Source of the DNA: Streptomyces sp. NP-1717
GTDB taxonomy: Bacteria; Actinomycetota; Actinomycetes; Streptomycetales; Streptomycetaceae
Direction of reading: 5' to 3'
Assembly: GCF_022695985.1 (NCBI RefSeq)
Contig: NZ_JAAPBF010000014.1
Location: 1-64,000, forward strand
DNA length: 64,000 bases
Below the pieces are notes generated by a model that made no database searches, was not told the DNA's origin, and was given only the letters and a program-made list of their open reading frames with translations. Shown here one piece after another: positions 22,517-58,763 of the stretch. Both the position numbers and the translations under genes were made by a program. Numbering within the stretch: position 1 is the stretch's first letter; the number at the start of each line of letters is the position of its first letter.

Positions 22517-22522
22517 CGGGCG

Positions 22523-23425: not shown

Positions 23426-23490
23426 CCGTATGTCCCACGGCCCCGTCGCAGCCGACTCCCGTGATCGTCCAGCCCGGAGGTGAATCCTGA
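23422..23490 (+). CDS. Putative 22-residue coupled mini-ORF
   Basis: A 22-codon frame fills the only gap in the transporter operon. Its ATG overlaps the OppC-type stop (ATGA), and its TGA overlaps the ATPase ATG (TGATG). The product (MTVCPTAPSQPTPVIVQPGG..) is proline-rich. The first eight bases, ATGACCGT, are the same as at the following ATPase start. It may be a true small peptide, a translational coupling device, or simply filler. There is no evidence of an independent function. Confidence 0.35.
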   Translation: MTVCPTAPSQPTPVIVQPGGES

Positions 23491-25726: not shown

Positions 25727-26763
25727 CAGCGCGACGGCGCGACAAGGCACCCAGCCAGGCGGACGTGGCACGGCTGGCCGGGGTGTCCCAGTCGGCGGTG
25801 TCCCGCGTGATCAGCGGGAACGCGGCGACCGCGCGTATCCCCGAGGAGACCAGACAGCGGGTCTTCGAGGCGGTCCGGGAGCTGGGATACGTCGCCAACC
25901 CGGCGGCCCGGGCCATGCGCAAGCAGCGCAACGACCTGCTCGGTGTGCACACGTTCGAGCGCGTCTTCCCGCGTGGCAGCGAGGACTTCTACTTCGAGTT
26001 CCTGCTCGGGATCGAGGAGCGGGCCGAGGAGACCGGGTTCGACCTGGTGCTGTTCACCTCTACGGGGTCCGGCGGCGGCGAGCGCAAAATCTACCGGAAC
26101 GGCACCAATCGGCTCAACCTGGCCGACGGCAGCATCCTCCTCGGTGTCTCCACCGACCGCGGCGAGCTGGCCCGCCTCTGGTACGAGGGATACCCCTTCA
26201 TCCACATCGGCCGCCGCGAGGTGCCCGGCGCGGAGATCCCGCAGATCATCCCCGACTACCGGTCGGCGAGCGCGCGGATCGTGGAGCGGCTAGCGCGGCA
26301 CGGCCACCGGCGGCTGGGATACGTACGCGACTGGCAGCAGATGGAGCCGTACGAGGACCGCCGTCTCGGCTACGCGGAGGCCGTCGAGCGGCTCGGGCTG
26401 ACCCACACCTCCCCCGACTCGGACGGCTCCGTGGCCCTCGACGGAGCCTGGCTCGACGAGGTGGCACGCGGCGGGGCGACCGCGATCGTCGTCGAGTCGG
26501 TGGGGCTCGCCCGGTCCCTGCGCGAGCAACTGGCCGTGCGCGGCAGGAAGATCCCGGACGACGTGTCCGTCGCCGTGCTGGAGGCGGCGTCCGCGGACCT
26601 GTCGGGGCAGTGGGACTCCCTGGTGATTCCCCGCGTCGAGATCGGCCGGCTCGCCGTGGACCGGCTGCAGGAGATGCTCGACGACCCCGAACTGCGCACC
26701 GGCAGCGTGCTGGTGCCCTGCCCGCTGATCACCGGCACGACGATCGCGGACGCGAGCGACTAG
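25723..26763 (+). CDS. LacI-family transcriptional regulator
   Basis: A 346-residue repressor. The N-terminal helix-turn-helix [21 protein letters not shown] with hinge [11 protein letters not shown] is followed by a sugar-binding-protein-like effector domain (FERVFPRG..., [26 protein letters not shown]). It is the last gene of the transporter operon, so it probably autoregulates it through the palindrome at 19714-19731 and may respond to an imported sugar. ATG 25723 overlaps the ATPase stop. The TAG stop lies inside the CTAG flank of a MITE-like insertion, but the protein looks complete. Confidence 0.94.
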
Positions 26764-26946
26764 GGGGTGTCCGCGAAGTCCCGCCTGGCCCGCGACGCCT
26801 GGCACGGCACCTCGCCGCGTTGTCGGACGCGGCCGAGTACGGCAGGTCCATCCACAACGCCGGTCCTCCGCCTTGCGATGCACCGCACCAGACGCCGCGG
26901 GCCCCGCCCTGCGGGCGGACGGCGCTACTTCGCGGACACCCCCTAG
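26760..26946. mobile_element. MITE-like 187-bp element with perfect terminal inverted repeats
   Basis: CTAGGGGGTGTCCGCGAAGT at 26760-26779 is the exact reverse complement of 26927-26946. The outer CTAG on each side is a 4-bp palindrome that can be read as a target duplication of the IS5 type (known preference for CTAG-like sites). The 147-bp interior has no transposase-length frame, so it would need an enzyme supplied in trans. It sits exactly on the lacI stop codon. The rest of the 344-nt gap (26947-27107) shows no gene. Confidence 0.8.
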
Positions 26947-27107
26947 GACTCTTCCTCGCCGGACACGGCGTAGGGCCGCGCAGCACCCGACGCCCCGAAA
27001 CCCGACAGCTCCGGACGCGCCGGCTGGTGAGTGGCGCCGTCCGCCGGTCCCGGGCGCCCTGAAACCGACGACCGAACACTTTGACCGTCAGAAGGAAGGC
27101 CAGCCCC

Positions 27108-28709: not shown

Positions 28710-28723
28710 TGAGAGGACCCGCC

Positions 28724-41995: not shown

Positions 41996-42043
41996 CACAT
42001 GCATCCCATAACTGGGGTTTTCTTCGTCTTGAGGAGTCCTACG

Positions 42044-43138
42044 GTGCCATCCCCCACAACCGCTCCCGACACCACCGCGCCCCCGCCGGTACCGGCCCCG
42101 GACCAGGCCGCCACGCGCCGGATGCTGCTCGGCCCCATGGTCATCGGCCTGTTCCTCGTCCTCGCCTTCGCGGGGCTGATGATCCCGGCGCTCCAGGACC
42201 CGAAGCCGCACGACGTGCCCATCGGTGTGGTCGGCCCGGCCGGCACCGGTGACAAGATCGACCAGCAGCTCCAGGCGGCGAGCCCGGACGCGTTCGACGT
42301 CACCTCCTACGGTTCCGAGGGCGCCGTCCGGGACGCGCTGATGGACCATGAGATCTACGGCGCCCTGCTGTTCACCGCTCCCCAGCAGCCGCCCACGCTC
42401 CTGGTGGCGGGTGCGGCCGGCGACGCGCCCGCGCGGGTCGTGACCGCCGCGTACGAGGAGTTGACCCGCCAGGCCGGCGCCACCGGGAAGATAGAGGACG
42501 TGGCACCTCTCCCCGAATCCGACTCACGGGGCGTCAGCGGCCTGCTGCTGAGCATCGCGCTGGTGATCGGAGCCCTCCTCTTCCAGGCGGTCCTCAGCCT
42601 GATGGCCGCGCGCCTGCCGGCCCGTAAACGGTTCCTCGCCGGACTCGGCTACGCGGTGATCGCCGGAGGCGTCGGCGCCCTGCTCGCCGGACCCGTTATC
42701 GGGGCGTTCGACGGCAGCTTCCCGCAGCTCTTCGGTGTCGCCGTACTCCTCTCCCTGGCTGCCGTCGGTGTCGTCGCCGCCTGCCAGGGCCTGCTCGGTG
42801 TGCTCGGCGTGGCCGTGGGCGCGCTCGTGGTGCTGCCGCTCGGCGTCTCCTCCTCGGGAGGGCCGGTGGACTACCACTTCCTCCCCGCCTTCTACTCGAC
42901 CATCTCCCAGTACATGCCGATGGGCAGTGCCATCACCTCGCTGCGGCGCATCTTCTACTTCGACGGCAACAACGTGATGACTCCGCTGCTGACGCTCGCC
43001 GTGTGGGCCGCCGCCGCCTGGATCGTCGCGCTGATCGCGGAGCGCGTACGGCCCTTCCGCCCGGCGGTGCTGGTGGTCCCCGTCTCGCAGCTGCCCCCCG
43101 GTTACCTTCCGGACCGCCGGGCCGGGCGGGCGAGTTGA
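42044..43138 (+). CDS. Multi-pass membrane protein, exporter-like (ABC-2 / DUF3533-like)
   Basis: About 364 residues: a Pro/Thr-rich cytoplasmic tail, one membrane helix (MVIGLFLVLAFAGLMIPAL), an outer domain of about 110 residues (DVPIGVVGPAGTGDKID...), then five more helices. This one-plus-five layout with the large first loop resembles YhgE/DUF3533-type and ABC-2 permease proteins that accompany drug export. GTG 42044 has GAGGAG 7 nt upstream. An ATG at 41999 is open but has no site. It overlaps the TetR gene at its 3' end. Probable role: export of, or resistance to, the cluster product (inference). Confidence 0.8.
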   Translation: MPSPTTAPDTTAPPPVPAPDQAATRRMLLGPMVIGLFLVLAFAGLMIPALQDPKPHDVPIGVVGPAGTGDKIDQQLQAASPDAFDVTSYGSEGAVRDALMDHEIYGALLFTAPQQPPTLLVAGAAGDAPARVVTAAYEELTRQAGATGKIEDVAPLPESDSRGVSGLLLSIALVIGALLFQAVLSLMAARLPARKRFLAGLGYAVIAGGVGALLAGPVIGAFDGSFPQLFGVAVLLSLAAVGVVAACQGLLGVLGVAVGALVVLPLGVSSSGGPVDYHFLPAFYSTISQYMPMGSAITSLRRIFYFDGNNVMTPLLTLAVWAAAAWIVALIAERVRPFRPAVLVVPVSQLPPGYLPDRRAGRAS

Positions 43139-43776: not shown

Positions 43777-45534
43777 TCAGGACTTGCGGCCCAGCGTGCC
43801 GTTGAGCAGCGACTCCACGACCTTCAGCCGCTGCAGCTTGCCGCTCGGCGTCTTCGGGAGCGATCCGCGGGGCACGATCTCCACCCGGTCGGGCCGCAGA
43901 CCCGTCTCCTCGGAGACGCTCCGCACGACCGCCTCACGCAGGGCGCCGGCGGCTTCGTCGTCGCCGGCGTGGTGCTTGGACTCGACCACGATGGTCAGCG
44001 CCTCCGTGCCCAGCGCGGGGTCCGGGCAGCCCACCGCCGCGACGGCGCCCGGGTGGGTGCCCGCGGCGTTGCTCGCCGCGGTCTCGAAGACGTACGGGTG
44101 GTAGTTACGGCCCCCGATGATCACGACGTCCTTGACGCGGCCGGTGACGTAGAGCTGGCCGTCGTCGAGGAATCCCTGGTCGCCGGTGTGCAGCCAGCCG
44201 TCGCGCAGGACCTTGTCCGTCTCGTCCTTCTGCTGGTAGTAACCGGACATCAGGGAGGGGCTGCGGAGCAGGATGTCGCCCTGCACCCGGTCGGCCACAT
44301 CCGTACGGGACTCGTCCACGACCCGTATCTCCGTCCCCAGCACGGGCGTTCCGGACGAGGCCAGCTCCTGGCGGTCGGGGTCGTCCGGACCGGCCTCCAC
44401 CACCTTGCCGGTGTCGGCCAGGACGTCCCGGCGCACCGTCGTGGTGATCATCGGGTCACCCGGCACGCACATGGTCGCCGCCAGCACGGTCTCGGCCATG
44501 CCGTAGCAGGGCATCATGGACGTCGCCCGGTAGCCGTAGGGGCTCAGCCGATCCGCGAACCGGCGCAGCGTGGCCGCGTTGACGACCTCCGCGCCGTTGC
44601 CGGCGACCCGCCACGCGCTGAGGTCCAGGCCGGCGAGCTTCGCGTCGGGGATCTTCGTGGCGCACATCTGGTACGCGAAGTTCGGCGCCGAGGTGAAGGT
44701 TCCCCGGTAGCGGTGGAGCGCCCGCAGCCACCGTTCGGGCCGCAGCGCGAAGGACAGCGGGGGCATGGAGGCGACGGGGAGGCCGTGGAGGAACGGCGCG
44801 AGGTTGCAGCCGATCAGGCCCATGTCGTGATGGAGCGGCAGCCAGGTGACGATCAGTTCGCCCGAGCGGAAGCACCGGTCGCCGATCGACGCGGCGTTGG
44901 ACATGATGGCCCGGTGCGTCAGAGCCACCCCGCGGCTGTTCCCGGTGGTGCCCGAGGTGAACTGGATCAGGGCCAGGTCGTCCGCGTCCGCCCGTACCGA
45001 CGTCGGCACATAACCGCCCTCGAAGGGCGGCTCGATGATCTCGACCCCCGCCTCCTGGCACGGACCCGCCACGGCGTCGCGGAAGGACGGTGCGGAGATC
45101 ACGGCACGCGGCTCGGCCCTGCTGATCAGCAACCGCAGCCGGTCCGACCAGCGCTGACGCCGCATCGTGGACAGCGGGGGCTCCGACACGAAGGGGACGG
45201 CGCCGAGCAGGAAGCAGCCGTGCAGGGCAGCGTAGGCGTCCGCGCTGGTGTCGAGACAGATGCCCACCCGGTCACCGGGCCGGACGCCCGCCTCGGCGAG
45301 AGTGGTCGCCGCCGCGCCCGCACGCTCGACGAGTTCGGCGGCGGTAAGCCGCACGGTCCGGCCCTCGGACTCCTCGATGTAGCACATCGGCTGGTCCGGG
45401 TAGAGCTCCGCGCGCTCCAGCAGGGCGGCGCCGATGGTGGGGGCAGACGTCAGGGCGACGCGCTCCGCCGGCTCGTCGGGCCGGTACTCCGCCCGGTCCT
45501 CGTGGACGTCCTCGATCGCTGCGACAGATGTCAT
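43777..45534 (-). CDS. Fatty-acyl-AMP ligase (FAAL)
   Basis: A 585-residue adenylate-forming enzyme that activates a fatty or other carboxylic acid as acyl-AMP and passes it to an acyl carrier protein. FAAL-type marks are visible: IQFTSGTTGNSRGVALTH, TWLPLHHDMGLIG, SAPNFAYQMC, WRVAGNGAEVV, PCYGMAETVLAAT, and the C-terminal GRVKDVVIIGGRNYHP, ending with the catalytic PKTPSGKLQR lysine. ATG 45534 was chosen at the family start. It is divergent from the PKS1 gene over a 291-nt shared region, so it probably supplies the PKS starter unit, perhaps to ACP1. Confidence 0.94.
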   Translation of the reverse strand: MTSVAAIEDVHEDRAEYRPDEPAERVALTSAPTIGAALLERAELYPDQPMCYIEESEGRTVRLTAAELVERAGAAATTLAEAGVRPGDRVGICLDTSADAYAALHGCFLLGAVPFVSEPPLSTMRRQRWSDRLRLLISRAEPRAVISAPSFRDAVAGPCQEAGVEIIEPPFEGGYVPTSVRADADDLALIQFTSGTTGNSRGVALTHRAIMSNAASIGDRCFRSGELIVTWLPLHHDMGLIGCNLAPFLHGLPVASMPPLSFALRPERWLRALHRYRGTFTSAPNFAYQMCATKIPDAKLAGLDLSAWRVAGNGAEVVNAATLRRFADRLSPYGYRATSMMPCYGMAETVLAATMCVPGDPMITTTVRRDVLADTGKVVEAGPDDPDRQELASSGTPVLGTEIRVVDESRTDVADRVQGDILLRSPSLMSGYYQQKDETDKVLRDGWLHTGDQGFLDDGQLYVTGRVKDVVIIGGRNYHPYVFETAASNAAGTHPGAVAAVGCPDPALGTEALTIVVESKHHAGDDEAAGALREAVVRSVSEETGLRPDRVEIVPRGSLPKTPSGKLQRLKVVESLLNGTLGRKS

Positions 45535-45825
45535 GAATTCATCCCTGTGATGTTGCCCGGTGACGTACTCCGCGCGCCGCAGGGTGACGCGGCCGTCCGG
45601 AGACAAGGAAAGAAATACTGCCTGGGTGCAGGGCGCGTGAGGTTTCCTCGCGCGGCTCGTGCACGTATTGGCGCCGCTTATCTCGGGGTGACATGCGGCA
45701 AGCCTCAACCTTGCGCAAGAGAAAGGTCGCAGTCAAGGAGTTCAACAACACCGGGCGTCAGCTTTAGGGGCGTTTAAGAAAGACGCTAGAGGCTGGCCGG
45801 AAACTATGGCCAGTAGTGTCGCCGC
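45535..45825. promoter_or_regulatory. Divergent FAAL/PKS1 promoter region
   Basis: The 291-nt gap has no gene. It contains the 10-bp palindrome CTTGCGCAAG (about 45713-45722), and CTGGCC-N9-GGCCAG at 45793-45813. A TAGTGT -10-like box follows at 45814-45819, just 6 nt before GTG 45826. It is a probable target of the LAL activator. The -35 positions are poor, as expected for an activator-dependent promoter. Confidence 0.5.
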
Positions 45826-48800
45826 GTGCTGTTCGATTCAGCTACCTCGAAGGGTACCCATACTGTGCTCGCTCTAGTCTTTCCCGGTCAGGGTTCGCAG
45901 CGTCGAGGTATGGGTGCGCAGCTCTTCGAAGCGTTTCCCGAGCTGGTCGTGCAGGCCGACGAAATCCTGGGATATTCCATCGAAGAGCTTTGCCGTGAGA
46001 ATCCGGACGGAAAGCTGGAGAAAACCCAGTACACGCAGACGGCGTTGTACGTCGTCAGTGCGCTGAGTTATTTCGAGCACCTTCAATCCTCCGGCGAGAT
46101 CCCTGACTTCCTGGCCGGACACAGCCTCGGCGAGTACAACGCGCTGCTCGCCGCCGGCGTATTCGACTTTCCCACCGGACTGCGGGTGGTGCAGAAGCGC
46201 GGAGAGCTGATGTCGCGCGTGAACGACGGCGGAATGGCCGCCGTCGTGGGCCTCGACGCCGACCGGGTGGCCGAGGTCCTCGCCGCCCCCGGGCTGGAAT
46301 CCCTGTCCGTCGCCAACTACAACAACCCCGCCCAGATCGTGATCGCCGGACCCCGGGACCGGATCGAGGCCGCCCGGTCGGCGTTCGAGGACGCGGGGGC
46401 CGGTCTCTACACCGTCCTGCGGGTCGGCGGCGCCTTCCATTCGCCCCATATGGCCGGAGTCCAGGCGGAGTTCGCCGAGTTCCTGGGCGGCGTCGAACTC
46501 GCCGCGCCCACCGTGCCCGTGCTCTCCAACGTGACCGCCCGGCCGCACGGACCCGACGTCGCCGACCTGATGGTCAGCCAGCTCACGCGGCCCGTGCTCT
46601 GGACCGACAGCGTGCGCCATCTGATCGGCCTGGGCGTCGAGGACATCCGGCAGATCGGACCGGGGCGCGCCCTCATCGGTCTCGTGCAGGCCACCCAGCG
46701 GGACGAGGCCGAGCGCCGCGAGGCGGAGCGGAGCGCGGCCGAGGGCCGGGCGGCGGACACGACCGCCGATCCCGCGCGGCCCACCACCGCACGGCCCACC
46801 ACCACGCCGACCGCGCCTGCCGCGCCGGCCGAGACCGCAGGGGAGCGGACCCGTACGCTGCGGCTGCGCCGCCCCGCCCGCGACCGCGCCCAGGGCACCG
46901 GCCACACCGAGGAACAGCTCACCGCCCTGCTTCTCGCCGATCTGCGGACCATCGTCACCCGCGTGCTGACGGCCGACCCGGGAGCGCTGCGCGCGGAGAC
47001 CGAACTCAGCGCACTCGGCTTCGACTCCATCAAACTGATCGAGTTCGCCGACCAGCTCCGCGAGGAGTTCGGCGTCGACCTGACGCCGTCGGTGTTCTTC
47101 GAGTACTTCACCATCGGCGCGTTCACCGCGCACCTGCTCGCCGAGCACCGCGACACGGTCGTGGCCCGCTACCGGGACAGCGCCGCCGGCGGCGCGGGGG
47201 AGACGTCCCCGGCGCCCGCCGAGCCCGGCGGACCTGCCCGGTCCGGCTCCGTACCCGCGCCCCGTGACGGCACCTCCGCCGCGACGCACGGCGCGCCGCC
47301 CGCCGCCGGTACCGGATCCGGCGCCGACGCCGTCGCCATCGTCGGGGTGAGCGCCGTCCTGCCCGGCTCCGCGGACCTCGACGAGTTCTGGCGGCACTTG
47401 GTCGACGGCACCGAACTGGTGTCGGACACCGCCGCCGACCGCTGGCGGGCCTGGGCCGGACCCGACCGCGCCCCCGGGGCGCGGTCCGCGCTCATCAGGG
47501 ACTTCGACACCTTCGACTGCCGGTTCTTCGGAATCTCGCCCGGCGAGGCCGAACTGATGGACCCTCACCAGAGGATCTTCCTCCAGACGGTGTGGAAGGC
47601 GTTCGAGGACGCGGGACGGCGTCCCACCGAACTCGCCGGCACCCGCACCGGACTGTTCGTGGGGCACGGCTCCATGGACTACGTGGAGGTCCTGTCGCAC
47701 AGCGCGGCCGGCACCCAGTCGCACACGGCCACCGGACTCGCGCACTCGATCCTCCCCAACCGGATCTCCCACCAGCTCGACCTGCGCGGACCGAGCGAGT
47801 CCGTCGACACCGCCTGCTCCTCCTCACTGGTGGCGCTGCACCGCGCCGTGCAGAGCCTGCGCGAGGGCGAGTGCGACCTCGCCGTCGCCGGCGGCGCGAG
47901 CATCCTCATGAGCCCCACCCCCTTCGACTCCTTCCAGCAGGCGGGAATGCTCGCCCCGGACGGGCGCTGCAAGACCTTCGACCGCGCCGCGGACGGTTAC
48001 GTACGCGGTGAGGGCGTCGTCGCCGTCGTACTGAAGTCGCTCGACAAGGCAGTCGCGGACGGCGACCACGTCTACGCCGTCGTGCGCGGCAGCGCCGTCA
48101 ACCACGGTGGGCGCAGCGCCTCGCTGACCGCGCCCAGCCCGGACGCGCAGGCCGACCTCATCGCCACCGCGTGGCGGCGGTCCGGACTCGACCCGGCCAC
48201 CGCCGGCTACATCGAGGCCCACGGCACCGGGACCGGCCTCGGCGACCCCATCGAGATCGAGGGTCTCAAGAAGGCGTTCGCCACGCTCTACCAGGACTGG
48301 GGCCACACCGGGCGCGCCGAGCCGCACATCGGCCTGGGCTCGGTCAAGACCTCCATCGGCCACCTGGAAGCGGCGGCGGGCCTCGCGGGCGTGGTCAAGA
48401 TGCTGATGGCGCTGCGCCATGAACGGCTGCCCGCGCTGCGGCACTTCGGCGAACTCAACCCGTTCATCCGCATGGACGACAGCCCGTTCAGGATCGTCGA
48501 CCGCACGGAGGAGTGGCCGCGTACGACGGACGGTGAAGGGGCGCCGGTGCCACGCCGCTGCGGCGTCAGTTCCTTCGGCTTCGGCGGCACCAACGCCCAT
48601 GTGGTGCTGGAGGAGTTCATCGCCGCCCCGGCCCCGGACGAGGCGGCGGACCGGGCGGCCGGGCCGTATCTGGTCCCCCTGTCCGCCCGTACCCCCGGCG
48701 CACTGCGGGAGTACGCCGAGGCGATGGTGCGCTGGCTGGACGAGCACGCACCCGAGAACGGGGCACCGGCCTTCGACCTGTCCGCGCTGGCCGACACCCT

Positions 48801-51800
48801 GCAACTCGGCAGGGACGCCATGGACGAGCGCCTGGCCCTCGTGGTCGCCGACGCCGACGATCTGTACGACGGGCTGGTCCGCCATCTGCGCGGCGAGGAC
48901 GCCGGCACGGCCTGGTACGCGGGCAACGCGGCCGGCGCGGGGGCGCTCTCCGGTGTTCTGCTCAGCGACGAGGAAGGGGCCGCCTATCTCCAGGCCATCC
49001 TTGACCGGGGAGCGACGGACAAGCTGGCCCGGCTGTGGGCCGCCGGCGCGGACCTCGACTGGCGGGAGCTGCGCGGCGACCGCCCCGTCCGCCGGACCCC
49101 GCTGCCGACCTACCCCTTCGAACGGCGCCGCTGCTGGCCGCAGGACCTCGTACCCCGGCAGCCGGTGACGCCGGCCGCAGTCGCGCCCGTCTCCTTCGCG
49201 GGCACGCCCGCCCCGGTGCCCGCCGCCTCCTCCGGCCCGGCCGCCCCGGTGACGGACGAAGAGGTCGGCGCCCACCTCGCCGCCGTGTTCGCCGAGACCC
49301 TGAAGTGGCGCCCGGAAGAGGTCGACCCGGGTGTCGCCTTCGACGAGCTCGGACTCAACTCGCTGGTCATCGAGCAGCTCCGGCGTCGCCTGGTGGCCCA
49401 CTACGGCCCCATCGACAGCACGACGTTCTACGTCTACAAGAACCTCGCCGACCTGACCAGGTACATCGCGGGGAAGGCACGCGCCGAGGGCCTGACACTG
49501 CCGCCCACGGCAGGACGAGGGCCGGTCCCCGCCCCGGCCCCGGCCGTCGTTCCCGCGCCCGCCGTCGCGATCGCGCCGACAGCCACCGTCGCGGCCCCCG
49601 TCTCCGCCACGGGGGGCACCGGCGGCGGTGACATCGCCATCATCGGCATGAGCGGGCGCTACCCGAAGGCCGCGTCCCTGACCGAGTACTGGAGGAATCT
49701 CCTCGACGGACGTGACTGCGTCGGCGAGATCCCCATGGACCGGCCCGGCTACCGGCGCTACGCCGAGCTGGCACGCGAGCGCTACGGCGACAAGTGGTAC
49801 CGCTGGGGCGGATTCCTCGACGACGTCGACGCGTTCGATCCGCAGTTCTTCCAGATATCACCGCGCGAGGCACGGGCACTCGACCCGCAGGAACGGCTGT
49901 TCCTGGAGACCGCGTGGGAGACGCTGGAGGACGCCGGCCACACCAGGAAGAGCCTGGCCGACCCGACCGCGGGCGACGCGCGGGGATCCGTCGGCGTCTT
50001 CGCCGGAGTGACCTTCAACAACTACCAGATGTTCGCGGCGAACGATCTGGAGCACGGTCAGTGGCAGCCCATCAGCTCGCAGACCTTCTCGATCGCCAAC
50101 CGGGTGTCCTACCTGTTCAACCTGGGCGGCCCCAGCCTGACCGTGGACACCGCCTGCTCGTCCTCGCTGTACGCCATCCATCTGGCCGTCGCCGCCATCA
50201 GGCGCGGCGAATGCGAGACGGCGCTGGCCGGCGGTGTGAACCTCTCGCTCCACCCCAGCAAGTACATGATGCTCGCCGAGGCCGGTTTCCTGGCCGACGA
50301 CGGCCGGTGCCGGGCGTTCGGTGACGGCGGCACGGGCTACGTACCCGCCGAGGCCGTGGGCGCGGTCCTGCTCAAACCGCTGGAGCGCGCCCTCGCCGAC
50401 GGAGACCAGGTGTACGCCGTCATCAAGGGCTCCGCGGTCAACAGCGACGGCCACACCTTCGGCTACAGCGTGCCCAACCCCGTCGCCCAGAGCGAGCTGA
50501 TCACCGCGGCGCTGGCGGACGCCGGTGTCGCCGCGGAGACGATCAGCTACGTGGAAGCCCACGGCACCGGCACCAGCCTGGGTGACCCCATCGAGATACG
50601 CGGCCTCACCGACGCGTTCGCCGCCTCCACCGACGCCCGCCAGTTCTGCGCCATCGGCTCCGTCAAGTCCGGCATCGGGCACGCCGAGGCCGCGGCCGGC
50701 ATCGCCCAGGTCACCAAGGTGGCGCTTCAGATGCGGCACGGCGAACTGGTGCCCTCCCTGCTGCACTCGGCCTCGACCAACAGCAATCTGGAACTGGAGA
50801 GGACACCGTTCAAGGTCCAGCGCGAACGGACCCCCTGGGAGCGGCCCCGCACCTCAAGTCCGGCCGGGGGCGAGCTGGTTCACCCCCGCCGCGCGGGCAT
50901 CAGCTCCTTCGGCGCGGGCGGCGTCAACGTACACCTGGTGCTGGAAGAGGCACCGGCCGTCGCCGCGGCGCCGGCGCCGGCGCGTGACCTCGTCTTCCCC
51001 CTGTCCGCCCGCGAGCCCGAGACGCTGCGCGACCTGGCCGCGCGGATGGCCGACCATCTGCGCGGCCTGCCGGCCGACTCGATCCGGGTGGCCGACATCG
51101 CCCACACGCTCCAGAGCGGTCGTGAACCGATGGAGCACCGTGCGGCGTTCGTCGCCGACGACCTCGCCGGGATCCTGAAGGGGCTGGACGAGATCGCTGC
51201 GACGACCGGCGGCCCGGCCTCGGTCAGCACGGGGCACTGCGAACCGCGTTCGACCCCGCCGCCCCTGGCGGACGGCGCGTCACCGCGCGAGGTCGCGTCC
51301 GCGTGGGTCGCGGGAGCGGCCCCTGACTGGGACGCGTACCTGCGGGGACTGACGCCCCGCCGGGTCTCCCTGCCGACCTACCCCTTCGCCCGCCGCCGGT
51401 ACTGGATGGCGGACGCCGGACCGACCGCCCAGGCGCCCGTGGCCGCGCCCCCGGCCGTCGCGGCCACGGGAGCCGACGCCCTGCCCGGCGACGCGGGCGA
51501 GACCCTGCTGAACCGGCTCGCGAGCCTCCCCGAAGGAGAGCGCAGTCCGGCGCTCGCCTCCTACCTCCAGACCGAACTCGGCCGCCTCCTCGAATTCCCC
51601 CCGGACGCCCCGCCGGACCGCCGGCGCGGCTTCTTCGACCTGGGCATGGACTCGGTGATGTCGGTGCGGCTCGGCAACACCCTGGAAGAACTCCTGGGGA
51701 TCGAGCTGTACACCAGCGTCACCTTCGACTACCCCTGCGTCGACGACCTCACCGGGTTCCTGCTGGAGCAGCTCGACCTCGACACGCCCGAGCCCGCCGC

Positions 51801-53313
51801 CGAGACCGCCACGCCCACCCGCGTCGAGACCGTGCCCGTCCAGCGCACCGTCCACTACCGGGTGGACTGGGAGCCGGCGGCCGGACCGCCGCGGAACGAC
51901 GCCCCGCTCACCGGCTCCGTACTGGTCTTCGACCCGGACGGACGGCTCTCCGAACTGGCGCGGGAGCACGCCGGGGACGGCGCGCGGATCGTCACCGTAC
52001 TCGCCGGCGACACCTACGGCGGTGCGGCCGACTCCTACCGGATCCGGCCGGACCACGACGAGGACTACGCGACACTGCTCGCCGACCTCGGAACCACACC
52101 CACGACCGTCATTCACGCCTGGCCGGGCTCCGAGGCCGGTCTCACCTCCGCGTTCCGCCTCACCCAGGCGCTGATGCGCGGCCGCGTGTCGCGCCCGCTG
52201 CGGCTGCTGCGCGTCGAGACGTTCAGCGGTGAGCACCCCGACGCGATGGCGGAGGCGTTCGGCGGGTTCGCCCGCTCCGTCCGCCACGAGAACCCGAACC
52301 TCGTCTACCAGGCCCTGACTGTCGGCGTCACCGGCGACCCTGCCGAGGACGTCCTGCGCGCCTGCCTCGGCGAACTCGCCTTCGGCGACGGGGCGGAGGC
52401 GGAGGTACGGCACGACCGGACCGGGCGCTGGACCCGCCGCCTGCGTGAGCTGGCGCCCGCCACCGGGACGCCCAAGGTCGCCGTACGCGACGGCGGCACC
52501 TACGTGATCACCGGCGGCGGTGGCGGCCTCGGCCTCATCTTCGCCGAGCACCTGGCACAGCAGTCCCGGGTACGGCTCCTGCTGCTCGGGCGTTCCGAAC
52601 TGGACGCCACCCGCCGGGAAGTGCTCGACCGGATCCGGTCCCTGGGATCCGAGGTGGTCTACGCGAGCGTGGACGTCAGCGACGCCGCCGAAGTCACCCG
52701 CGTACTGGACGAGACACGAGGACGCTGGGGCCGGCTGCACGGCGTCATCCACTCCGCCGGAGTCCTGCGCGACGCGCTGATACTGAACAAGAGCGCCGGG
52801 GAGATCGGCACCGTCCTGTCCGCGAAGGTCGACGGCGCACGGGCCCTCGACGAGGCGACCCGCCTCGACGAACTCGACTTCTTCATGACGTTCTCGTCCC
52901 TGGCCGCACTCGCTGGCAACCCCGGCCAGGTGGACTACGCGTTCGCCAGCCGGTTCCTCAACGCCTTCAGTCGCGGCCGCGAGCGGCAGCGCGCACAGGG
53001 CGAGCGGTCCGGCGCCAGCATCACCGTCGTATGGCCCTTCTGGCGGGACGGCGGCATGCGCGTCGACGCCGAGACCGGGGGCTTCGTCCGCAGGCGGCTC
53101 GGACTGGAACACCTGCCGACGGACGCGGGCGTCGAAGCGTTCGACATCGCCCTGCGCACCGCCGAACCGGAGATCGGTGTGGTGCTCGCCGACCGCGAGA
53201 AGCTCGACCGGGTCCTGCGGATCGAACGCCCCGAGGAGAGCCCCGACGACGTCGCCCCCTCCCGCAGCACCGCCGTGGAACTGCTCGACACCTTGGAGGA
53301 ACTGGGGCTCTGA
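45826..53313 (+). CDS. Type I polyketide synthase PKS1: AT-ACP-KS-ACP-KS-ACP-KR
   Basis: A 2495-residue synthase. Residues 1-300: a FabD-like malonyl transferase (FPGQGSQ; GHSLGEYN with Ser100; GAFHS with His205). ACP1: Ser401. KS1: about 500-935, Cys664 in DTACSSS plus EAHGTGT and SIGHLEAAAG. A linker of about 170 residues ends PTYPFERRRCW with no AT. ACP2: Ser1179, in GLNSL. KS2: about 1268-1710, Cys1444. A second AT-less linker. ACP3: Ser1943. KR: about 2005-2450 (TGGGGGLG, Tyr2371). Both KS-linker units and the KR (VVWPFWRDGGM) are of the trans-AT type. The Tyr+4 residue of the KR is Ser, not Asn. GTG 45826 may be leaderless, and GTG 45865 with GAAGGG is an alternative. Confidence 0.95.
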   Translation: MLFDSATSKGTHTVLALVFPGQGSQRRGMGAQLFEAFPELVVQADEILGYSIEELCRENPDGKLEKTQYTQTALYVVSALSYFEHLQSSGEIPDFLAGHSLGEYNALLAAGVFDFPTGLRVVQKRGELMSRVNDGGMAAVVGLDADRVAEVLAAPGLESLSVANYNNPAQIVIAGPRDRIEAARSAFEDAGAGLYTVLRVGGAFHSPHMAGVQAEFAEFLGGVELAAPTVPVLSNVTARPHGPDVADLMVSQLTRPVLWTDSVRHLIGLGVEDIRQIGPGRALIGLVQATQRDEAERREAERSAAEGRAADTTADPARPTTARPTTTPTAPAAPAETAGERTRTLRLRRPARDRAQGTGHTEEQLTALLLADLRTIVTRVLTADPGALRAETELSALGFDSIKLIEFADQLREEFGVDLTPSVFFEYFTIGAFTAHLLAEHRDTVVARYRDSAAGGAGETSPAPAEPGGPARSGSVPAPRDGTSAATHGAPPAAGTGSGADAVAIVGVSAVLPGSADLDEFWRHLVDGTELVSDTAADRWRAWAGPDRAPGARSALIRDFDTFDCRFFGISPGEAELMDPHQRIFLQTVWKAFEDAGRRPTELAGTRTGLFVGHGSMDYVEVLSHSAAGTQSHTATGLAHSILPNRISHQLDLRGPSESVDTACSSSLVALHRAVQSLREGECDLAVAGGASILMSPTPFDSFQQAGMLAPDGRCKTFDRAADGYVRGEGVVAVVLKSLDKAVADGDHVYAVVRGSAVNHGGRSASLTAPSPDAQADLIATAWRRSGLDPATAGYIEAHGTGTGLGDPIEIEGLKKAFATLYQDWGHTGRAEPHIGLGSVKTSIGHLEAAAGLAGVVKMLMALRHERLPALRHFGELNPFIRMDDSPFRIVDRTEEWPRTTDGEGAPVPRRCGVSSFGFGGTNAHVVLEEFIAAPAPDEAADRAAGPYLVPLSARTPGALREYAEAMVRWLDEHAPENGAPAFDLSALADTLQLGRDAMDERLALVVADADDLYDGLVRHLRGEDAGTAWYAGNAAGAGALSGVLLSDEEGAAYLQAILDRGATDKLARLWAAGADLDWRELRGDRPVRRTPLPTYPFERRRCWPQDLVPRQPVTPAAVAPVSFAGTPAPVPAASSGPAAPVTDEEVGAHLAAVFAETLKWRPEEVDPGVAFDELGLNSLVIEQLRRRLVAHYGPIDSTTFYVYKNLADLTRYIAGKARAEGLTLPPTAGRGPVPAPAPAVVPAPAVAIAPTATVAAPVSATGGTGGGDIAIIGMSGRYPKAASLTEYWRNLLDGRDCVGEIPMDRPGYRRYAELARERYGDKWYRWGGFLDDVDAFDPQFFQISPREARALDPQERLFLETAWETLEDAGHTRKSLADPTAGDARGSVGVFAGVTFNNYQMFAANDLEHGQWQPISSQTFSIANRVSYLFNLGGPSLTVDTACSSSLYAIHLAVAAIRRGECETALAGGVNLSLHPSKYMMLAEAGFLADDGRCRAFGDGGTGYVPAEAVGAVLLKPLERALADGDQVYAVIKGSAVNSDGHTFGYSVPNPVAQSELITAALADAGVAAETISYVEAHGTGTSLGDPIEIRGLTDAFAASTDARQFCAIGSVKSGIGHAEAAAGIAQVTKVALQMRHGELVPSLLHSASTNSNLELERTPFKVQRERTPWERPRTSSPAGGELVHPRRAGISSFGAGGVNVHLVLEEAPAVAAAPAPARDLVFPLSAREPETLRDLAARMADHLRGLPADSIRVADIAHTLQSGREPMEHRAAFVADDLAGILKGLDEIAATTGGPASVSTGHCEPRSTPPPLADGASPREVASAWVAGAAPDWDAYLRGLTPRRVSLPTYPFARRRYWMADAGPTAQAPVAAPPAVAATGADALPGDAGETLLNRLASLPEGERSPALASYLQTELGRLLEFPPDAPPDRRRGFFDLGMDSVMSVRLGNTLEELLGIELYTSVTFDYPCVDDLTGFLLEQLDLDTPEPAAETATPTRVETVPVQRTVHYRVDWEPAAGPPRNDAPLTGSVLVFDPDGRLSELAREHAGDGARIVTVLAGDTYGGAADSYRIRPDHDEDYATLLADLGTTPTTVIHAWPGSEAGLTSAFRLTQALMRGRVSRPLRLLRVETFSGEHPDAMAEAFGGFARSVRHENPNLVYQALTVGVTGDPAEDVLRACLGELAFGDGAEAEVRHDRTGRWTRRLRELAPATGTPKVAVRDGGTYVITGGGGGLGLIFAEHLAQQSRVRLLLLGRSELDATRREVLDRIRSLGSEVVYASVDVSDAAEVTRVLDETRGRWGRLHGVIHSAGVLRDALILNKSAGEIGTVLSAKVDGARALDEATRLDELDFFMTFSSLAALAGNPGQVDYAFASRFLNAFSRGRERQRAQGERSGASITVVWPFWRDGGMRVDAETGGFVRRRLGLEHLPTDAGVEAFDIALRTAEPEIGVVLADREKLDRVLRIERPEESPDDVAPSRSTAVELLDTLEELGL

Positions 53314-53440: not shown

Positions 53441-56400
53441 ATGACCGACGATGTGCTGCTGAGGCGTTCGCTGAACGCCATCCAAGTCCTCCGCGAGCAG
53501 ATGCGGGAGCTGCGCTCGGCCGCGGAGGAACCCATCGCGCTGGTCGGCATGGGCTGCCGGTTCCCCGGCGGCGCCGACAGCCCCGAGCGGTTCTGGGAAC
53601 TGCTGCGCGACGGCAGGGACGCCATCACCGACGTACCGCCCGAGCGCTGGTCCGCCGACCGGTTCCACTCCCAGGTCCGCGACGAGCCCGGTACCGCCTA
53701 CACCCGCAAGGGCGGCTTCCTCACCGAGGACGTACACGCCTTCGACGGGCCGTTCTTCGGCATCACGGACGCCGAGGCACGCGAGATGGACCCCCAGCAG
53801 CGCCTCCTCCTGGAGACGAGCTGGGAGGCGCTGGAGAGCGGCGGTCTGCTCTCCGACGACCTCACCGGAGAACGGATCGGCGTGTTCGTCGGTGTCTCCG
53901 GCTCCGAGAGCTCCCTGCTGAACCGCCCGCTCGACGACACCGGCCCGTACACCGCGACCGGTGTCGCACCGAGCATCACCGCCGGCCGCATCGCCTACGC
54001 CCTCGGGCTCCGGGGCCCCGCGCTGGCCGTCGACACCGCCTGCTCCTCGTCCCTGGTGGCGATCCATCTGGCGGTCGAGAGCCTGCGCAGGGGCGAGTGC
54101 ACCGCCGCCGTCGCGGGCGGTGCCAGCGCCATGATGTCGCCGGACGTCTTCGTCGCCCTCTGCCGTATGGAGGCCCTGGCCGCCGACGGCCGCTGCAAGG
54201 TGTTCGACGCCGAGGCGGACGGCTACGTCCGCTCCGAGGGCGTCGGCATGGTCGCCCTGATGCGGGCCTCCGACGCCGCCGCGGCGCGCGCTCCCGTCCT
54301 CGCCCTGATCGCGGGATCCGCCGTGAACCACGACGGGCACACCGCCGGTCTCACCGTCCCCAACGGACGGGCCCAGCGCGAACTCATCACCGCCGCGCTC
54401 GCCGCCGCCCGCACCCGCCCGGACGAGGTCGACTACCTGGAGGCGCACGGCACGGGCACCCCGCTCGGCGACCCCATCGAGGTCCGCGCCGCCGCCGAGG
54501 TGTTCTGCGCCGACCGGGACCCCGCCACCCCCCTTCTCATCGGCGCGGTGAAATCCAACGTGGGCCACCTGGAGGCCGCCGCGGGAGTCGCCGGTCTGAT
54601 CAAGACCGTTCTGGCGCTCCGGCACGGCGAGGTGCCGGGCAATCTGCACCTGAACCAGCTCAATCCGCGGCTGCGCGCCGACCGGCTGCCGGTGGACTTC
54701 TGCGACTCCGCCCGCCCCTGGCCCGCCTCCGCCGGCCGGCCGCGCGTCGCGGGAGTCAGCGCCTTCGGATTCAACGGCACCAACGCACACCTCGTGGTAC
54801 GGGAGGCCCCCGCCGCCCGCCCGCGCGAGACGGCCACCGACGACCGCCCGGCGCATCTGCTCGCACTCTCCGCCCGCGACCCGCGCGGACTGCGGGAGTC
54901 GGCGCTCCGCCTCGCCCACTGGCTCACCGAACACCCGGACGCCTCGCTGGCCGACGTCTGCCACACCGTCAGCGCCCGCCGTCCCGCGTTCCCGTACCGG
55001 ACCGCCCTCGTCGCACGGACGGGCGACGACCTCGTGGACCGGCTGCGCGCCGTCGCCGGCGAGACGGCCGACCCGCCCGAGCAGACGACCGGCCCGGTCG
55101 CGTTCCTGCTCAACGCCACCGGGGACCGCGCGTGGCGGTCCGCGGCCCGCCTGTACGCCACCTACCCCGCGTTCCGCGACCACTTCGACCGGTGCGACAC
55201 GCTGCTGCGGCCCACCGCCGGTGAGCCGATCGCCGCCAGGCTGGCCCAAGGACCCTCCGGTTCACCGCTGTTCAGGGACACCGTCGCCCTCGCGTACCAG
55301 ATCGCGCTCGTCCGCGCGCTCGACGGCTGGCGCGTGAAGGCCGGCGCCGTCGCCGGCTCGGGGCCGGGTGAACTCGCCGCCGCCTGCCTCGCGGGAGTCC
55401 TCGACACCGCGACCGCCGGGCGACTGCTCGCGGCGCGGCACACGGACGCGACCCCGCCGCCGCTCACCGAGGCACGCGGTCCGCGCCTGCGGCTGCTCCA
55501 CGGCCCGCGCGCCGACGCTGTCACCGCCGAGCGGGCGGCCGACCCCCTGTTCTGGGCACAGGAGAGCGAGGGAACCACGGCGCGCGCGCTGACGGCGGCG
55601 CTCGCCGACCACGGGTACGGCACGCTGGTCTCCCTCGGCGGCGCCGGCGCCGGGGAAGAAGCCACGCACCACGGCAACGCCGCCGCCCCCGTCCACTGGG
55701 CAGTCCCCGGCGACGACGTGTGGGAGGAACTGCTGACGGGCGCCGCCGGCCGCTATCTGGCCGGAGCTGACGTGGACTGGTCCGGTCTCGACCTCGGCCA
55801 GGACCGGGCGCGGCTCACCCTGCCCACGTACCCCTTCCAGCGCCGCTCCTACGGACCCCTGGGCACGGCCGCGCCCCCACCCGCACGCGACCCCGGAAGC
55901 GGCCGGCCGACCGGTGAACTCGCCCTTCGTACGGTGCCCTCACCACTCGACCAGCGCCAGTTCGACACCGTCGTCAGCCGCGCCCTGCTGCCCGAACTCG
56001 CCGATACGGCGGGCGTACTGCACGTCGGCTACTACCAGGAGATGCTCGCCGCCGCGACCTCCGCGGACGGCGCCGGAGACGGCTTCCACGTGCGGGACGT
56101 CAACTTCCACCACGCGCTGCGGCTGTCGGGCCGTCAGGAGCGCACCGTTCAGCTCGTCGTGGAACCCTCGGACGACAAGGGCTGGGCCGACTTCGCCTTC
56201 TACAGCCGCCCCACGGCGGGCACCGAGTGGGACCGCCATGTGCGCGGCAGCCTGCGACCGGGCCCGGCCGACCGGACCGAGGAGGAGTCGGCGCCCCTGA
56301 CCCCGGCGGAGCGCGAGCGGATACGCGCGCGCTGCACCGAGCCGGTCGGCGGCGAGGAGTTCTACAAGCTGATGCGGGACCGGGGCGTGGCCCTCGGCCC

Positions 56401-57955
56401 CTCCGTCGAATGGGTCGAGGAGGCGTGGACAGGCGACGGCGAGGTGCTCGCCAGGCTGCGGCCCGCCGGCGAGGCCACCGTGCCCGCCGGCCGCCCCGGC
56501 CGCGCCCTGCCCGCCCACCCGGGAGTGCTGGACGCCTGCGTACAGCTCTACGCCCTGGCCGCCGGACAGGCCCTCGCCGACGACGACCTGTTCATCACCG
56601 CCCGTCTGGGCGAGGCCGACGCCGTGAGCGCTCCGGTCGGCGGGCCGCTCTGGTGCCATGTGCGGCTGAGGTCCGCGGTGGGACAACGGCTCGTCGGCGA
56701 CCACCTGCTCTGCGACGACCGGGGCCGGATCGTCGCCTCCGGCCGCGACACCGAGATCCAGGTGATCAGCCCGCAGGAGAGCCTCAGCCTGCTGGCCGCG
56801 ACCGACGGCGGGCAGAGCGGCGACCACCCCGGCGAGATCCTCGCCCACTACCGGGCCGTCGCCGCCGCCGACCGCCCCGGGGTGCTGACGGACTTCCTCG
56901 CCGAGACGGCCGCGGGCCTGCTGCGGCAGCCCGCCGACGAGATTCCGGCCGGCCGCCCCCTCTCCGAGCTGGGCCTGGAGTCACTGGCGGCCATGGAACT
57001 GCGCAAGCGGATCCGCACCGGCACCGGCGTCGATCTGCCGGTCGAACTCCTCGTCGACGGCCCGTCGCTGGACGAACTCGCCCAGCACATCGCCTCGGAG
57101 ATCGAGACGGACGACGAACCAGAGGCCACCCGGTCCGCACCACGCGCCTACGACCTGGACAGCGCCCGCTGGCTCGGCACCGCCGTACGGGAGACCTCGA
57201 AGCTCAGGCTGTTCTGCCTGCCCTACGGCGGTCGCGGCGCGTCCCTGTACCGCGACTGGCCGCGCGAGCTCGACGGCGGCGTCGAGATCTGCCCGGTCCA
57301 GCTGCCGGGCCGCGAGGAGCGCGCGGACGAACTGGGAATCGTCAACGTGGACGAGGCGGTCGAGAGCATCGCGCAGGTCCTCAAACCGTATCTGGACCGC
57401 CCCTTCGCCTTCTACGGCCACAGCATGGGCGGCCTCCTCGCCTACCGGCTGGCGCACCGCCTCGGCGGGGAGTACGGCCCACTGCTGCGCCATCTGTTCG
57501 TCGGCGCGTTCAGCGCGCCCACCGGGGCCGTCAATCCGCTGGACGACCGCATCCTGGCCGTGATGCGGTCCCTCGGGTTCCCGGGCATGCCCGCCCAGCA
57601 GGACCTGCTGCGGCTGCGGCGCGAGCGGCCCGGGGAGTACGAGCGGGCCCTGCGCCGGGAGTTCGACGACCGGGTGGCGGCCAAACTGGACGCGTCGACC
57701 AGCGGCTGCGGCTACGGAGACCTGCGGATCGTGCAGAGCTACCGGCACGATCCGGCCGAAACGCCACTGGCGACCGGGGTGACCGCCTTCCACGGAGCAG
57801 GCGACCCGGTGGTGCCGGAGAACGACATGCGAGCCTGGGAGGGCCTGACCAGCGGCCCCTTCGAACTGCGGGTCGTACCGGGCGACCACTTCTTCCTGCA
57901 CACCGACCAGAGCGGCCCCCGGCTGCTGGAAGCCTTCTCCGAAACCCTGCGCTGA
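53441..57955 (+). CDS. Type I polyketide synthase PKS2: KS-(degenerate AT)-DH-like-ACP-TE
   Basis: A 1504-residue synthase. A helical N-terminal docking stretch (LRRSLNAIQVLREQMREL) precedes the KS (about 30-455, Cys201, EAHGTGT, SNVGHLEAAAG). An AT-like region (about 545-800) has GSGPGE near 638 where GHSxGE is expected, so the nucleophilic serine is missing and the domain is shortened. A double-hotdog DH-like region (about 835-1110) keeps HPGVLDACVQL but lacks a clear HxxxGxxxxP. ACP: Ser1181 in GLESL. TE: about 1235-1504, GHSMG Ser1328 and GDHFF. ATG 53441 has GAGGAG upstream and starts 127 nt after PKS1. The TE implies chain release here. Confidence 0.94.
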   Translation: MTDDVLLRRSLNAIQVLREQMRELRSAAEEPIALVGMGCRFPGGADSPERFWELLRDGRDAITDVPPERWSADRFHSQVRDEPGTAYTRKGGFLTEDVHAFDGPFFGITDAEAREMDPQQRLLLETSWEALESGGLLSDDLTGERIGVFVGVSGSESSLLNRPLDDTGPYTATGVAPSITAGRIAYALGLRGPALAVDTACSSSLVAIHLAVESLRRGECTAAVAGGASAMMSPDVFVALCRMEALAADGRCKVFDAEADGYVRSEGVGMVALMRASDAAAARAPVLALIAGSAVNHDGHTAGLTVPNGRAQRELITAALAAARTRPDEVDYLEAHGTGTPLGDPIEVRAAAEVFCADRDPATPLLIGAVKSNVGHLEAAAGVAGLIKTVLALRHGEVPGNLHLNQLNPRLRADRLPVDFCDSARPWPASAGRPRVAGVSAFGFNGTNAHLVVREAPAARPRETATDDRPAHLLALSARDPRGLRESALRLAHWLTEHPDASLADVCHTVSARRPAFPYRTALVARTGDDLVDRLRAVAGETADPPEQTTGPVAFLLNATGDRAWRSAARLYATYPAFRDHFDRCDTLLRPTAGEPIAARLAQGPSGSPLFRDTVALAYQIALVRALDGWRVKAGAVAGSGPGELAAACLAGVLDTATAGRLLAARHTDATPPPLTEARGPRLRLLHGPRADAVTAERAADPLFWAQESEGTTARALTAALADHGYGTLVSLGGAGAGEEATHHGNAAAPVHWAVPGDDVWEELLTGAAGRYLAGADVDWSGLDLGQDRARLTLPTYPFQRRSYGPLGTAAPPPARDPGSGRPTGELALRTVPSPLDQRQFDTVVSRALLPELADTAGVLHVGYYQEMLAAATSADGAGDGFHVRDVNFHHALRLSGRQERTVQLVVEPSDDKGWADFAFYSRPTAGTEWDRHVRGSLRPGPADRTEEESAPLTPAERERIRARCTEPVGGEEFYKLMRDRGVALGPSVEWVEEAWTGDGEVLARLRPAGEATVPAGRPGRALPAHPGVLDACVQLYALAAGQALADDDLFITARLGEADAVSAPVGGPLWCHVRLRSAVGQRLVGDHLLCDDRGRIVASGRDTEIQVISPQESLSLLAATDGGQSGDHPGEILAHYRAVAAADRPGVLTDFLAETAAGLLRQPADEIPAGRPLSELGLESLAAMELRKRIRTGTGVDLPVELLVDGPSLDELAQHIASEIETDDEPEATRSAPRAYDLDSARWLGTAVRETSKLRLFCLPYGGRGASLYRDWPRELDGGVEICPVQLPGREERADELGIVNVDEAVESIAQVLKPYLDRPFAFYGHSMGGLLAYRLAHRLGGEYGPLLRHLFVGAFSAPTGAVNPLDDRILAVMRSLGFPGMPAQQDLLRLRRERPGEYERALRREFDDRVAAKLDASTSGCGYGDLRIVQSYRHDPAETPLATGVTAFHGAGDPVVPENDMRAWEGLTSGPFELRVVPGDHFFLHTDQSGPRLLEAFSETLR

Positions 57956-57995: not shown

Positions 57996-58763
57996 ATGGC
58001 AGCAGTTCCCGCGGCGACCAGCCCGTGGATCATACGGTTCCACCCGGTCCCGGAACCCCGCGTCAGGCTGGTGTGCTTCCCGCACGCCGGGGGATCGGCG
58101 TCGTACTACTTCCCGGTCTCGCGCGTGCTGTCGTCCGCCGCCGAGGTACTGGTCCTTCAGTACCCCGGCCGGCAGGACCGCCGCGACACCCCGTTCATCG
58201 ACAACATCACGGAACTCGCCGACGCCGTCACGCCCGAGCTGCGCGGCGGGCCGGACGTCCCGACCGCGCTCTTCGGACACAGCATGGGCGCCACCCTCGC
58301 CTTCGAGGTCGCGCGGCGGCTGGAGCGGCACGGCGAGAAACCACTCGCGCTGTTCGCGTCCGGCCGGCGGGCCCCGGCGGAGGTGAAGGACGAGGGACTG
58401 CACAAGTCGAGCGACGCCGAACTCATCGACCACGTGGCCCGGTTGAGCGGAACGGGCATGGAGGTGCTGCGCGACCCGGACATCGTGCGCATGGTGCTGC
58501 CCGTCCTGCGCAGCGACTACCGGGCGGCGGAGACCTACCGCTACCAGCCGGGCGAGAAACTGACCTGCCCCGTCTACGCGCTGACCGGCGACAACGACCC
58601 GCAGGTCAGCACGGACGAGGCGGACGCCTGGACGCACTACACCGACGGACCGTTCGAGAAGAAGGTTTTCGACGGCGGCCACTTCTTCTTCACCACGGGG
58701 CCCGAGAAGCCACTGGCGTACGTCGCCGAGCGCCTCACGGCACTGACGTCCGGCACCGCCTGA
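57996..58763 (+). CDS. Type II thioesterase
   Basis: A 255-residue stand-alone alpha/beta hydrolase of the GrsT/RifR class that removes stalled or wrong acyl groups from carrier proteins. Marks: FPHAGGSASYYFP, YPGRQDR, nucleophile GHSMG, Asp in TGDNDPQV and final GGHFFF histidine. ATG 57996 has AAGGAAAG upstream and follows PKS2 by 40 nt, so it is the third gene of the PKS operon. It shares its class with the TE domain fused to PKS2. Confidence 0.95.
   Translation: MAAVPAATSPWIIRFHPVPEPRVRLVCFPHAGGSASYYFPVSRVLSSAAEVLVLQYPGRQDRRDTPFIDNITELADAVTPELRGGPDVPTALFGHSMGATLAFEVARRLERHGEKPLALFASGRRAPAEVKDEGLHKSSDAELIDHVARLSGTGMEVLRDPDIVRMVLPVLRSDYRAAETYRYQPGEKLTCPVYALTGDNDPQVSTDEADAWTHYTDGPFEKKVFDGGHFFFTTGPEKPLAYVAERLTALTSGTA

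Follow-up and report, generated by a model that had tools for sequence, protein, structure and literature searches.

Trans-AT polyketide synthase (PKS) lines use a stand-alone acyltransferase (AT), as stated in a review (PMC11907408). In the auroramycin synthase, the discrete disorazole AT rescued inactivated cis-ATs with unequal yields, and one module gave less than 5% of the parent yield (PMC6943886). For algae, displacement of cis-ATs to a trans arrangement has been proposed from trees (PMC4661987). Among the matches listed in the open-licence literature, we found no description of an AT fused at the N terminus of a trans-AT line. Synthase engineering is limited by two questions, namely how AT-less and AT-bearing synthases interconvert and how a visiting AT locates the ACPs it serves. 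Here, we describe a Streptomyces locus in which what appears to be a trans-type AT is fused into one synthase protein while the next protein carries a dead cis-AT. This combination is the strongest point of the locus, and the prediction that follows from it is open to biochemical testing.

We analyzed the first 64,000 nucleotides of contig NZ_JAAPBF010000014.1 from Streptomyces sp. NP-1717 (the window; features in Table 1). PKS1 is an intact open reading frame with a GTG start. Its true start may be at 45865, leaving the first 13 residues perhaps untranslated, because an in-frame GTG at that position aligns with the starts of the homologues in genomes G047, G184, and G325. Pfam and domain mapping gave the order AT-ACP1-KS1-ACP2-KS2-ACP3-KR, with Acyl_transf_1 at residues 18-266, three PP-binding stretches, two ketoacyl-synthase domains, and a KR at residues 2224-2407 behind the last ACP. 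Both KSs are followed by RhiE-like/CurL-like linkers, and Pfam found an AT after neither. KS1-ACP2 and KS2-ACP3 are AT-less elongation modules. In the N-terminal AT, GHSLGE (from residue 98) and AFHS (residues 203-206) are intact, as are the Cys-His-His sets of KS1 and KS2 and the serines of the three ACPs. An earlier note on this DNA had proposed this domain order, with intact AT motifs and with post-KS linkers that run to an ACP without an AT; the reading frame, Pfam, and our motif check confirmed both. Four complete homologues (93, 64, 64, and 64% identical when aligned to the window protein) and the protein of Streptomyces sp. CNH099 keep the same order, which argues that it did not arise by chance.

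Table 1. Features of the locus, in window positions; PKS1 residues are from domain mapping.
Feature	Position	Strand	PKS1 residues	Description
ABC-2 type permease	41999..43138	+		common to G354, G047, G184, and G105
FAAL	43777..45708	-		divergently transcribed, likely starter loader
PKS1	45826..53313 (start possibly 45865)	+		AT-ACP1-KS1-ACP2-KS2-ACP3-KR, 2495 aa
N-terminal AT	45865..46710	+	14-295	supported as trans-AT type; GHSLGE, Arg125, AFHS intact
ACP1	46921..47160	+	366-445	GFDSI
KS1	47326..48615	+	501-930	trans-AT type, Cys-His-His intact, without following AT
ACP2	49249..49473	+	1142-1216	GLNSL
KS2	49627..50952	+	1268-1709	trans-AT type, Cys-His-His intact, without following AT
ACP3	51556..51774	+	1911-1983	GMDSV
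KR	51976..53115	+	2051-2430	behind last ACP, structural and catalytic part
PKS2	53441..57955	+		KS3-AT*-DH-ACP4-TE, 1504 aa
KS3	53531..54805	+		groups with cis-AT KSs, Cys-His-His intact
AT*	55073..55840	+		remnant of a cis-type AT; GSGPGE, with the nucleophile Ser replaced; His stretch 118 to 34 residues
DH	55934..56773	+		DH of PKS2
ACP4	56894..57091	+		GLESL
TE	57191..57940	+		TE of PKS2 (GHSMG)
Thioesterase	57996..58763	+		separate (type II)
Cytochrome P450	59030..60319	-		
AMP-binding enzyme	60332..61906	-		acyl-CoA ligase-like
PKS3	61903..64000, on to contig position 68187	-		KS-AT-DH-ER-KR-ACP, intact cis-AT

The closest relatives of the PKS1 AT in the PDB were DisD (1.8e-89), PksE (1e-85), and PksC (6e-84). 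Also near were two chains (6mhp, 3.9e-85; 3g87, 9e-76) whose only name is malonyl CoA-ACP transacylase; further chains so named did no better than 1.6e-52, and synthase-integrated ATs began at about 4e-35. We built an AT tree from 101 of 185 AT domains, with near-copies dropped, cis-ATs capped at 14, and tandem/hydrolase-type ATs capped at 16; FabD labels in it were assigned by frame length and rank rather than from inspected gene neighbourhoods. One side of a branch (SH-aLRT 99) held 54 rows, namely 50 of the 51 rows labelled trans-AT, three of the PKS1 family, and one from G325. The cis-ATs (14 rows, 97) and the hydrolase/tandem type (16 rows, 100) stood apart from this clade. Forcing the PKS1-family AT together with the cis-ATs lowered lnL by 51 but was not rejected at the 5% level in the AU test (p = 0.095). 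Similarity and tree thus support a FabD-like malonyl AT of the trans-AT clade, its malonyl specificity being predicted, while the AU test falls short. This agrees with the earlier note, which had PKS1 carrying its own "trans" AT as an N-terminal domain.

This AT is not a protein separate from the synthase, as it is built into PKS1 in all six complete copies, including that of the window. The nearest AT outside the PKS1 family is 55% identical and starts an 802 aa protein in genome G031. Because the PKS1 AT sits within the trans-AT clade, its fusion to the synthase looks derived rather than ancestral to built-in ATs. The suggestion of an evolutionary link between free-standing and built-in ATs was therefore not supported: the AT tree lends no support to an ancestral link between trans- and cis-ATs, although this was weakly tested (AU p = 0.095). 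A single origin of the PKS1-family AT and the G325 AT was not rejected (AU p = 0.618), and the free tree separated them.

The KS domains were also placed by tree. From 103 KS domains, 68 were kept after near-copies and 13 "end" rows (KSs too near a frame end) were dropped, and removal of four long-branch rows left 64 for the careful tree; a KS was classed as "cis" or "AT-less" according to the presence or absence of a downstream AT in the DNA rather than by comparison with named reference sets. KS1 and KS2 fell among the AT-less KSs of the 64-domain tree. Forcing their six rows together with the cis-AT KSs and KS3 lowered lnL by 182 in the 68-row quick tree and was rejected (p = 1.1e-5). KS1 and KS2 are thus of the trans-AT class, and the grouping with cis-AT families that would have told against the earlier reading was not seen. 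KS3 is not of this class. It was represented by its orthologues from G354, G047, and CNH099, with the window KS3 dropped as a near-copy of that of G354, and these three formed one side of a branch with the 21 cis-AT KSs (100/98). A tree with the 21 cis-AT KSs alone apart was not rejected in the 68-row set (p = 0.695), so that KS3 may be basal to the cis clade or nested in it.

PKS2 also carries the remains of a cis-type AT. Between KS3 and DH lies a region (AT*) that scores below the Pfam Acyl_transf_1 cut-off (24.8 versus 32.7 bits). Aligned to the intact PKS3 AT, it has GSGPGE (window and G354) or GAAPGD (the other four) in the place of GHSIGE; the nucleophile serine is therefore gone. AT* spans 183 residues compared to 273 in the PKS3 AT, with about a third of the domain lost, the catalytic His included, and the stretch expected to hold the catalytic His has 34 residues instead of 118. 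GHSxG was missing from AT* in 6/6 PKS2 proteins, the window's included, and from a seventh, paralogous copy on contig C220 of the same genome. The remnant itself is kept in 7/7 copies, 46 to 85% identical to that of the window, which makes its role directly testable. A structure model of the region was weak (mean pLDDT of 62, 132 of 371 residues below 50, seven input sequences). The best 50 of its 431 PDB matches were all PKS-integrated AT domains or synthases containing one, with TM-scores of 0.29 to 0.46 by query length. The model fits a shortened cis-type AT and proves little alone.

An active AT after each KS, as in a cis-AT PKS, is not what this locus has: none follows KS1 or KS2, the one in PKS2 is a remnant without a nucleophile, and an intact AT behind a KS was found in PKS3 only. 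The absence of a DH or ER partner, noted earlier, stands for PKS1 itself but not for the line, since PKS2 contributes a DH along with ACP4 and a TE. Conservation also extends to the C-terminal tail of PKS1 and the N-terminal helix of PKS2, which resemble docking segments. The usual DH motif is HxxxGxxxxP; where it is expected, the PKS2 DH carries HVGYYQ in five of six copies and HVGHYQ in one.

The AT, KS, and ACP motifs are intact in the other complete PKS1 copies as well, and GHSxGE, Arg, and FHS of the N-terminal AT are kept in 7/7 proteins, counting the window and G325. Within the PKS1 family, identity to the window is 66 to 95% for the AT, 72 to 95% for KS1, and 75 to 97% for KS2. One could read the locus as decaying, with the fused AT a fossil and the line silent. 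AT* shows that domain decay does happen here, but even relatives with no more than 60 to 64% identity retain the AT, KS, and ACP catalytic motifs, and we find this explanation hardly credible.

We then asked how widespread the arrangement is. In 392 genomes of the same genus, 78 had an AT at E ≤ 1e-60, and a PKS1-type AT above 400 bits was present in six, own genome included. In NP-1717, G354, G184, G047, and G105, this AT lies in frames of 2495 to 2521 aa; in G050, it lies on a contig end, where the fusion itself is not visible. A seventh genome, G325, has an AT at 307 bits ahead of an assembly gap and reads AT-ACP-KS-ACP-KS before unread bases. Draws of 394 genomes each from the class and from the family, which overlap each other and the genus set, had an AT above 400 bits in the own genome alone. 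Most genomes in all three surveys had only their six best first-look candidates scored. The earlier note had called for a search for the same domain order in other genomes, and the full order was mapped in G354, G047, G184, G105, and CNH099 as well as in the window. CNH099 was the sole locus of 80 kept whose match extends through the ACP, domain maps being drawn for 29 of the 80. Among 91 trans-type AT copies checked (some places twice), an in-frame KS was present downstream of 8 and absent from 58, and 25 were cut by the end of the locus. The eight were the six PKS1-family copies, G325, and a protein of Burkholderia glumae. A first-pass peptide-pattern scan of the genome contigs gave no match.

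Two plasmids of Streptomyces sp. NBC_01483/NBC_01450 looked like further cases, with a protein match spanning 7.3 kb and residues 3-2443. The first was rejected because its AT and ACP proved to be free and its large PKS separate, with an asparagine-synthase-like amidotransferase also encoded; the second was rejected too, its frames being identical in kind and place. The G325 frame (L064:8866-14232) enters unread bases, and its C-terminal half is unread. Its identity to the window is 54% for the AT, 64% for KS1, and 72.5% for KS2; the lower value for the AT than for KS2 may hint at an AT swap, although a single origin was not rejected (p = 0.618). A PKS2-like DH (48%) lies on another G325 contig (G325:C11). 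Taken together, the PKS1 arrangement is real, conserved, and rare, and in these surveys it was found in the genus of the window only, apart from the different B. glumae fusion.

The gene next to PKS1 bears on how the line is primed. A FAAL adjoins PKS1 in 8/8 loci (window, G354, G047, G184, G105, G050, CNH099, and G325), divergent in seven and on the same strand in G325, and in the PDB it matched a fatty acyl-adenylate ligase best (8.8e-87). If AT-ACP1 were a starter-loading didomain, the AT would load ACP1 only and another malonyltransferase, e.g., FabD, would serve the extender ACPs. Loading modules have just this AT-ACP-KS order, and a FabD is to be expected in any such genome. However, the PKS1 AT goes with the trans-ATs and not the cis-ATs by the tree (with the AU test short of the 5% level, p = 0.095), the adjoining FAAL is the likelier starter source, and KS1, KS2, and the AT* module would otherwise be without an AT of their own. 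We therefore consider a starter didomain unlikely.

The other neighbours vary. The ABC-2 permease is 55 to 58% identical between sub-lineages, and none was called at the CNH099 or G325 loci. A SARP-type regulator (BTAD) lies directly behind PKS2 in G047. In G354, the order is TE, P450, AMP ligase, PKS3, FcoT-like, TauD-like, and then a SARP-type regulator (BTAD); no such regulator was seen in NP-1717, because the contig ends at 69765. FcoT-like and ScoE-like genes lie behind PKS3 past the window (contig C46, 68263-69706) and are shared with G354 at 94 to 98%. The TauD-like protein is of the type of ScoE, an isonitrile-forming oxygenase/decarboxylase (PDB ScoE, 1.5e-121; NCBIfam, 470 bits against a cut-off of 400), while the FcoT-like protein of G354 scored 201 bits against ScoD, below the NCBIfam cut-off of 250. 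Among the called genes at the G047, G184, and G105 loci, neither protein had a blastp match at E ≤ 1e-10; isonitrile chemistry would therefore be an addition of the window lineage and not part of the core. We considered an amycomicin-type product given the ScoE-like gene and claim no link. Elsewhere in the window (17273-30895) are sugar-use genes for a GH42 beta-galactosidase, a solute-binding protein, an ABC transporter, a LacI regulator, and a GH3 enzyme.

Pfam found three ATs on the contig, namely those of PKS1 and PKS3 and the PKS2 remnant. The PKS3 AT has CASH in place of AFHS as its specificity motif, which suggests another extender unit. No free-standing AT, which would have spoken against loading by the PKS1 AT, was found by Pfam on the contig, which ends at 69765 in a cluster that may go on. 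Genome-wide, with the window AT and not the C220 AT as the query, no other AT scored above 142 bits in 7/7 genomes, compared to 307 to 615 bits for the family AT itself. The next-best AT of the own genome is a discrete one on contig C220 (141.8 bits); those of the other six genomes score at most 131 bits and lie in frames of 994 aa or more.

Contig C220 (L192:3-7033) begins inside a PKS gene. It holds the PKS2 paralogue with a dead AT, whose DH is 57% identical to that of the window. Behind this gene come a discrete AT of 422 aa, a 3-hydroxyacyl-CoA dehydrogenase, and an ACP. The next frame resembles an acyl-CoA dehydrogenase, judged by eye. We take this group to be a hydroxymalonyl/methoxymalonyl-ACP type set. 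The C220 AT had been labelled a fatty-acid FabD (tree row L165), and its neighbours show the label to be wrong. A second PKS1 to go with the paralogue was not found in the own genome, where the next KS to follow KS2 reaches just 48% identity. On a plasmid of Paenibacillus sp. IHB B 3084 (L012:5968-7215), a discrete AT of about 410 aa lies ahead of a FAAL-KS protein; it pairs with the C220 AT in the tree (92), and the two perhaps form a separate type of discrete AT.

These genes could offer other ways of loading ACP4, with the PKS1 AT serving PKS1 only. The PKS3 cis-AT is intact (GHSIGE), and on C220 a discrete AT stands directly behind a PKS2 paralogue whose own AT is dead. Against PKS3, the PKS2 AT is equally dead in the clusters of G047, G184, and G105, where a close PKS3 is missing (best match, 35%). 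Against a C220-type enzyme, the second AT of the other six genomes reaches at most 131 bits versus the window AT (142 for C220). Loading of ACP4 from either source is, in our judgment, distinctly unlikely. More generally, the C220 discrete AT or the fatty-acid FabD, which was not located in the own genome, could load the ACPs instead.

We lean toward a short trans-AT/cis-AT chimeric line made of PKS1 and PKS2, in which the PKS1 AT loads malonyl on ACP2 through ACP4 and AT* is noncatalytic, and we think it probable. Its starting points are read from the DNA: the domains, the motifs kept and lost, the clades, the conservation, and the lack of another close trans-type AT in the genomes searched. 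An acyl starter would probably be put on ACP1 by the neighbouring FAAL. The PKS1 AT, as a trans-type malonyltransferase fused to the line, would load malonyl on ACP2 and ACP3. It would also load ACP4 of PKS2, where the cis-type AT has decayed; that the AT of the next protein is dead lends support to the idea that the PKS1 AT serves other proteins. We infer, then, that the ACPs of both proteins receive malonyl from one N-terminal AT and that PKS1 precedes PKS2. KS1, KS2, and KS3 would each add two carbons, and the chain would be handed over from PKS1 to PKS2. The PKS1 KR would account for one keto reduction and the PKS2 DH for one dehydration before the TE releases the chain.

More tentatively, as a reading that we can see going either way, one integrated trans-type AT would supply all three elongation modules on the two proteins, one of them a module of cis-AT origin. 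The shortened AT* would perhaps remain as a docking face for the visiting AT, and the locus would be a natural AT complementation in a line that is shifting from cis to trans loading. In two sub-lineages that are about 60% identical, a trans-type AT appears to have become part of the line and the adjacent cis-AT to have decayed. With three KSs and four ACPs on two proteins, full reconstitution is realistic.

Compared to known systems, PKS1 and PKS2 are a variant of trans-AT/cis-AT synthases that we have not seen described before. They resemble trans-AT PKSs such as those for bacillaene and disorazole in their AT-less modules, trans-type KSs, and RhiE/CurL-like linkers and in an AT nearest to DisD, PksE, and PksC. 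Unlike in those systems, the AT is the first domain of the first synthase and not a separate protein, and the last module has a KS of the cis-AT group and a dead AT. An N-terminal fusion of a trans-type AT is not unique to PKS1, since an NRPS/PKS megasynthase of B. glumae (WP_257835445.1; L002) starts with one and also has a FAAL-like unit associated with it. That protein differs in that FAAL-ACP-C-A and KS modules come behind the AT within a single chain of 4146 aa, and its AT, 50% identical to that of PKS1, lies elsewhere in the trans-AT clade. The B. glumae gene is on plasmid psl2395s2p (L002:12013-24453), with the AT directly ahead of the FAAL-like domain and with pabB and diiron oxygenase genes adjoining.

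The AT-ACP-KS order at the N terminus is also that of cis-AT loading didomains, e.g., the DEBS loader. Unlike in these, the PKS1 AT falls in the trans-AT clade of the tree (a grouping with cis-ATs not being rejected, AU p = 0.095), and KS1 and KS2 have no ATs of their own. A functional parallel to the model is the engineered complementation of the auroramycin synthase by the discrete disorazole AT (PMC6943886), since in the model a trans-type malonyl AT likewise would serve a module with an inactive cis-AT. The Streptomyces line, by contrast, has not been engineered, and its serving AT is an integral domain of the partner protein.
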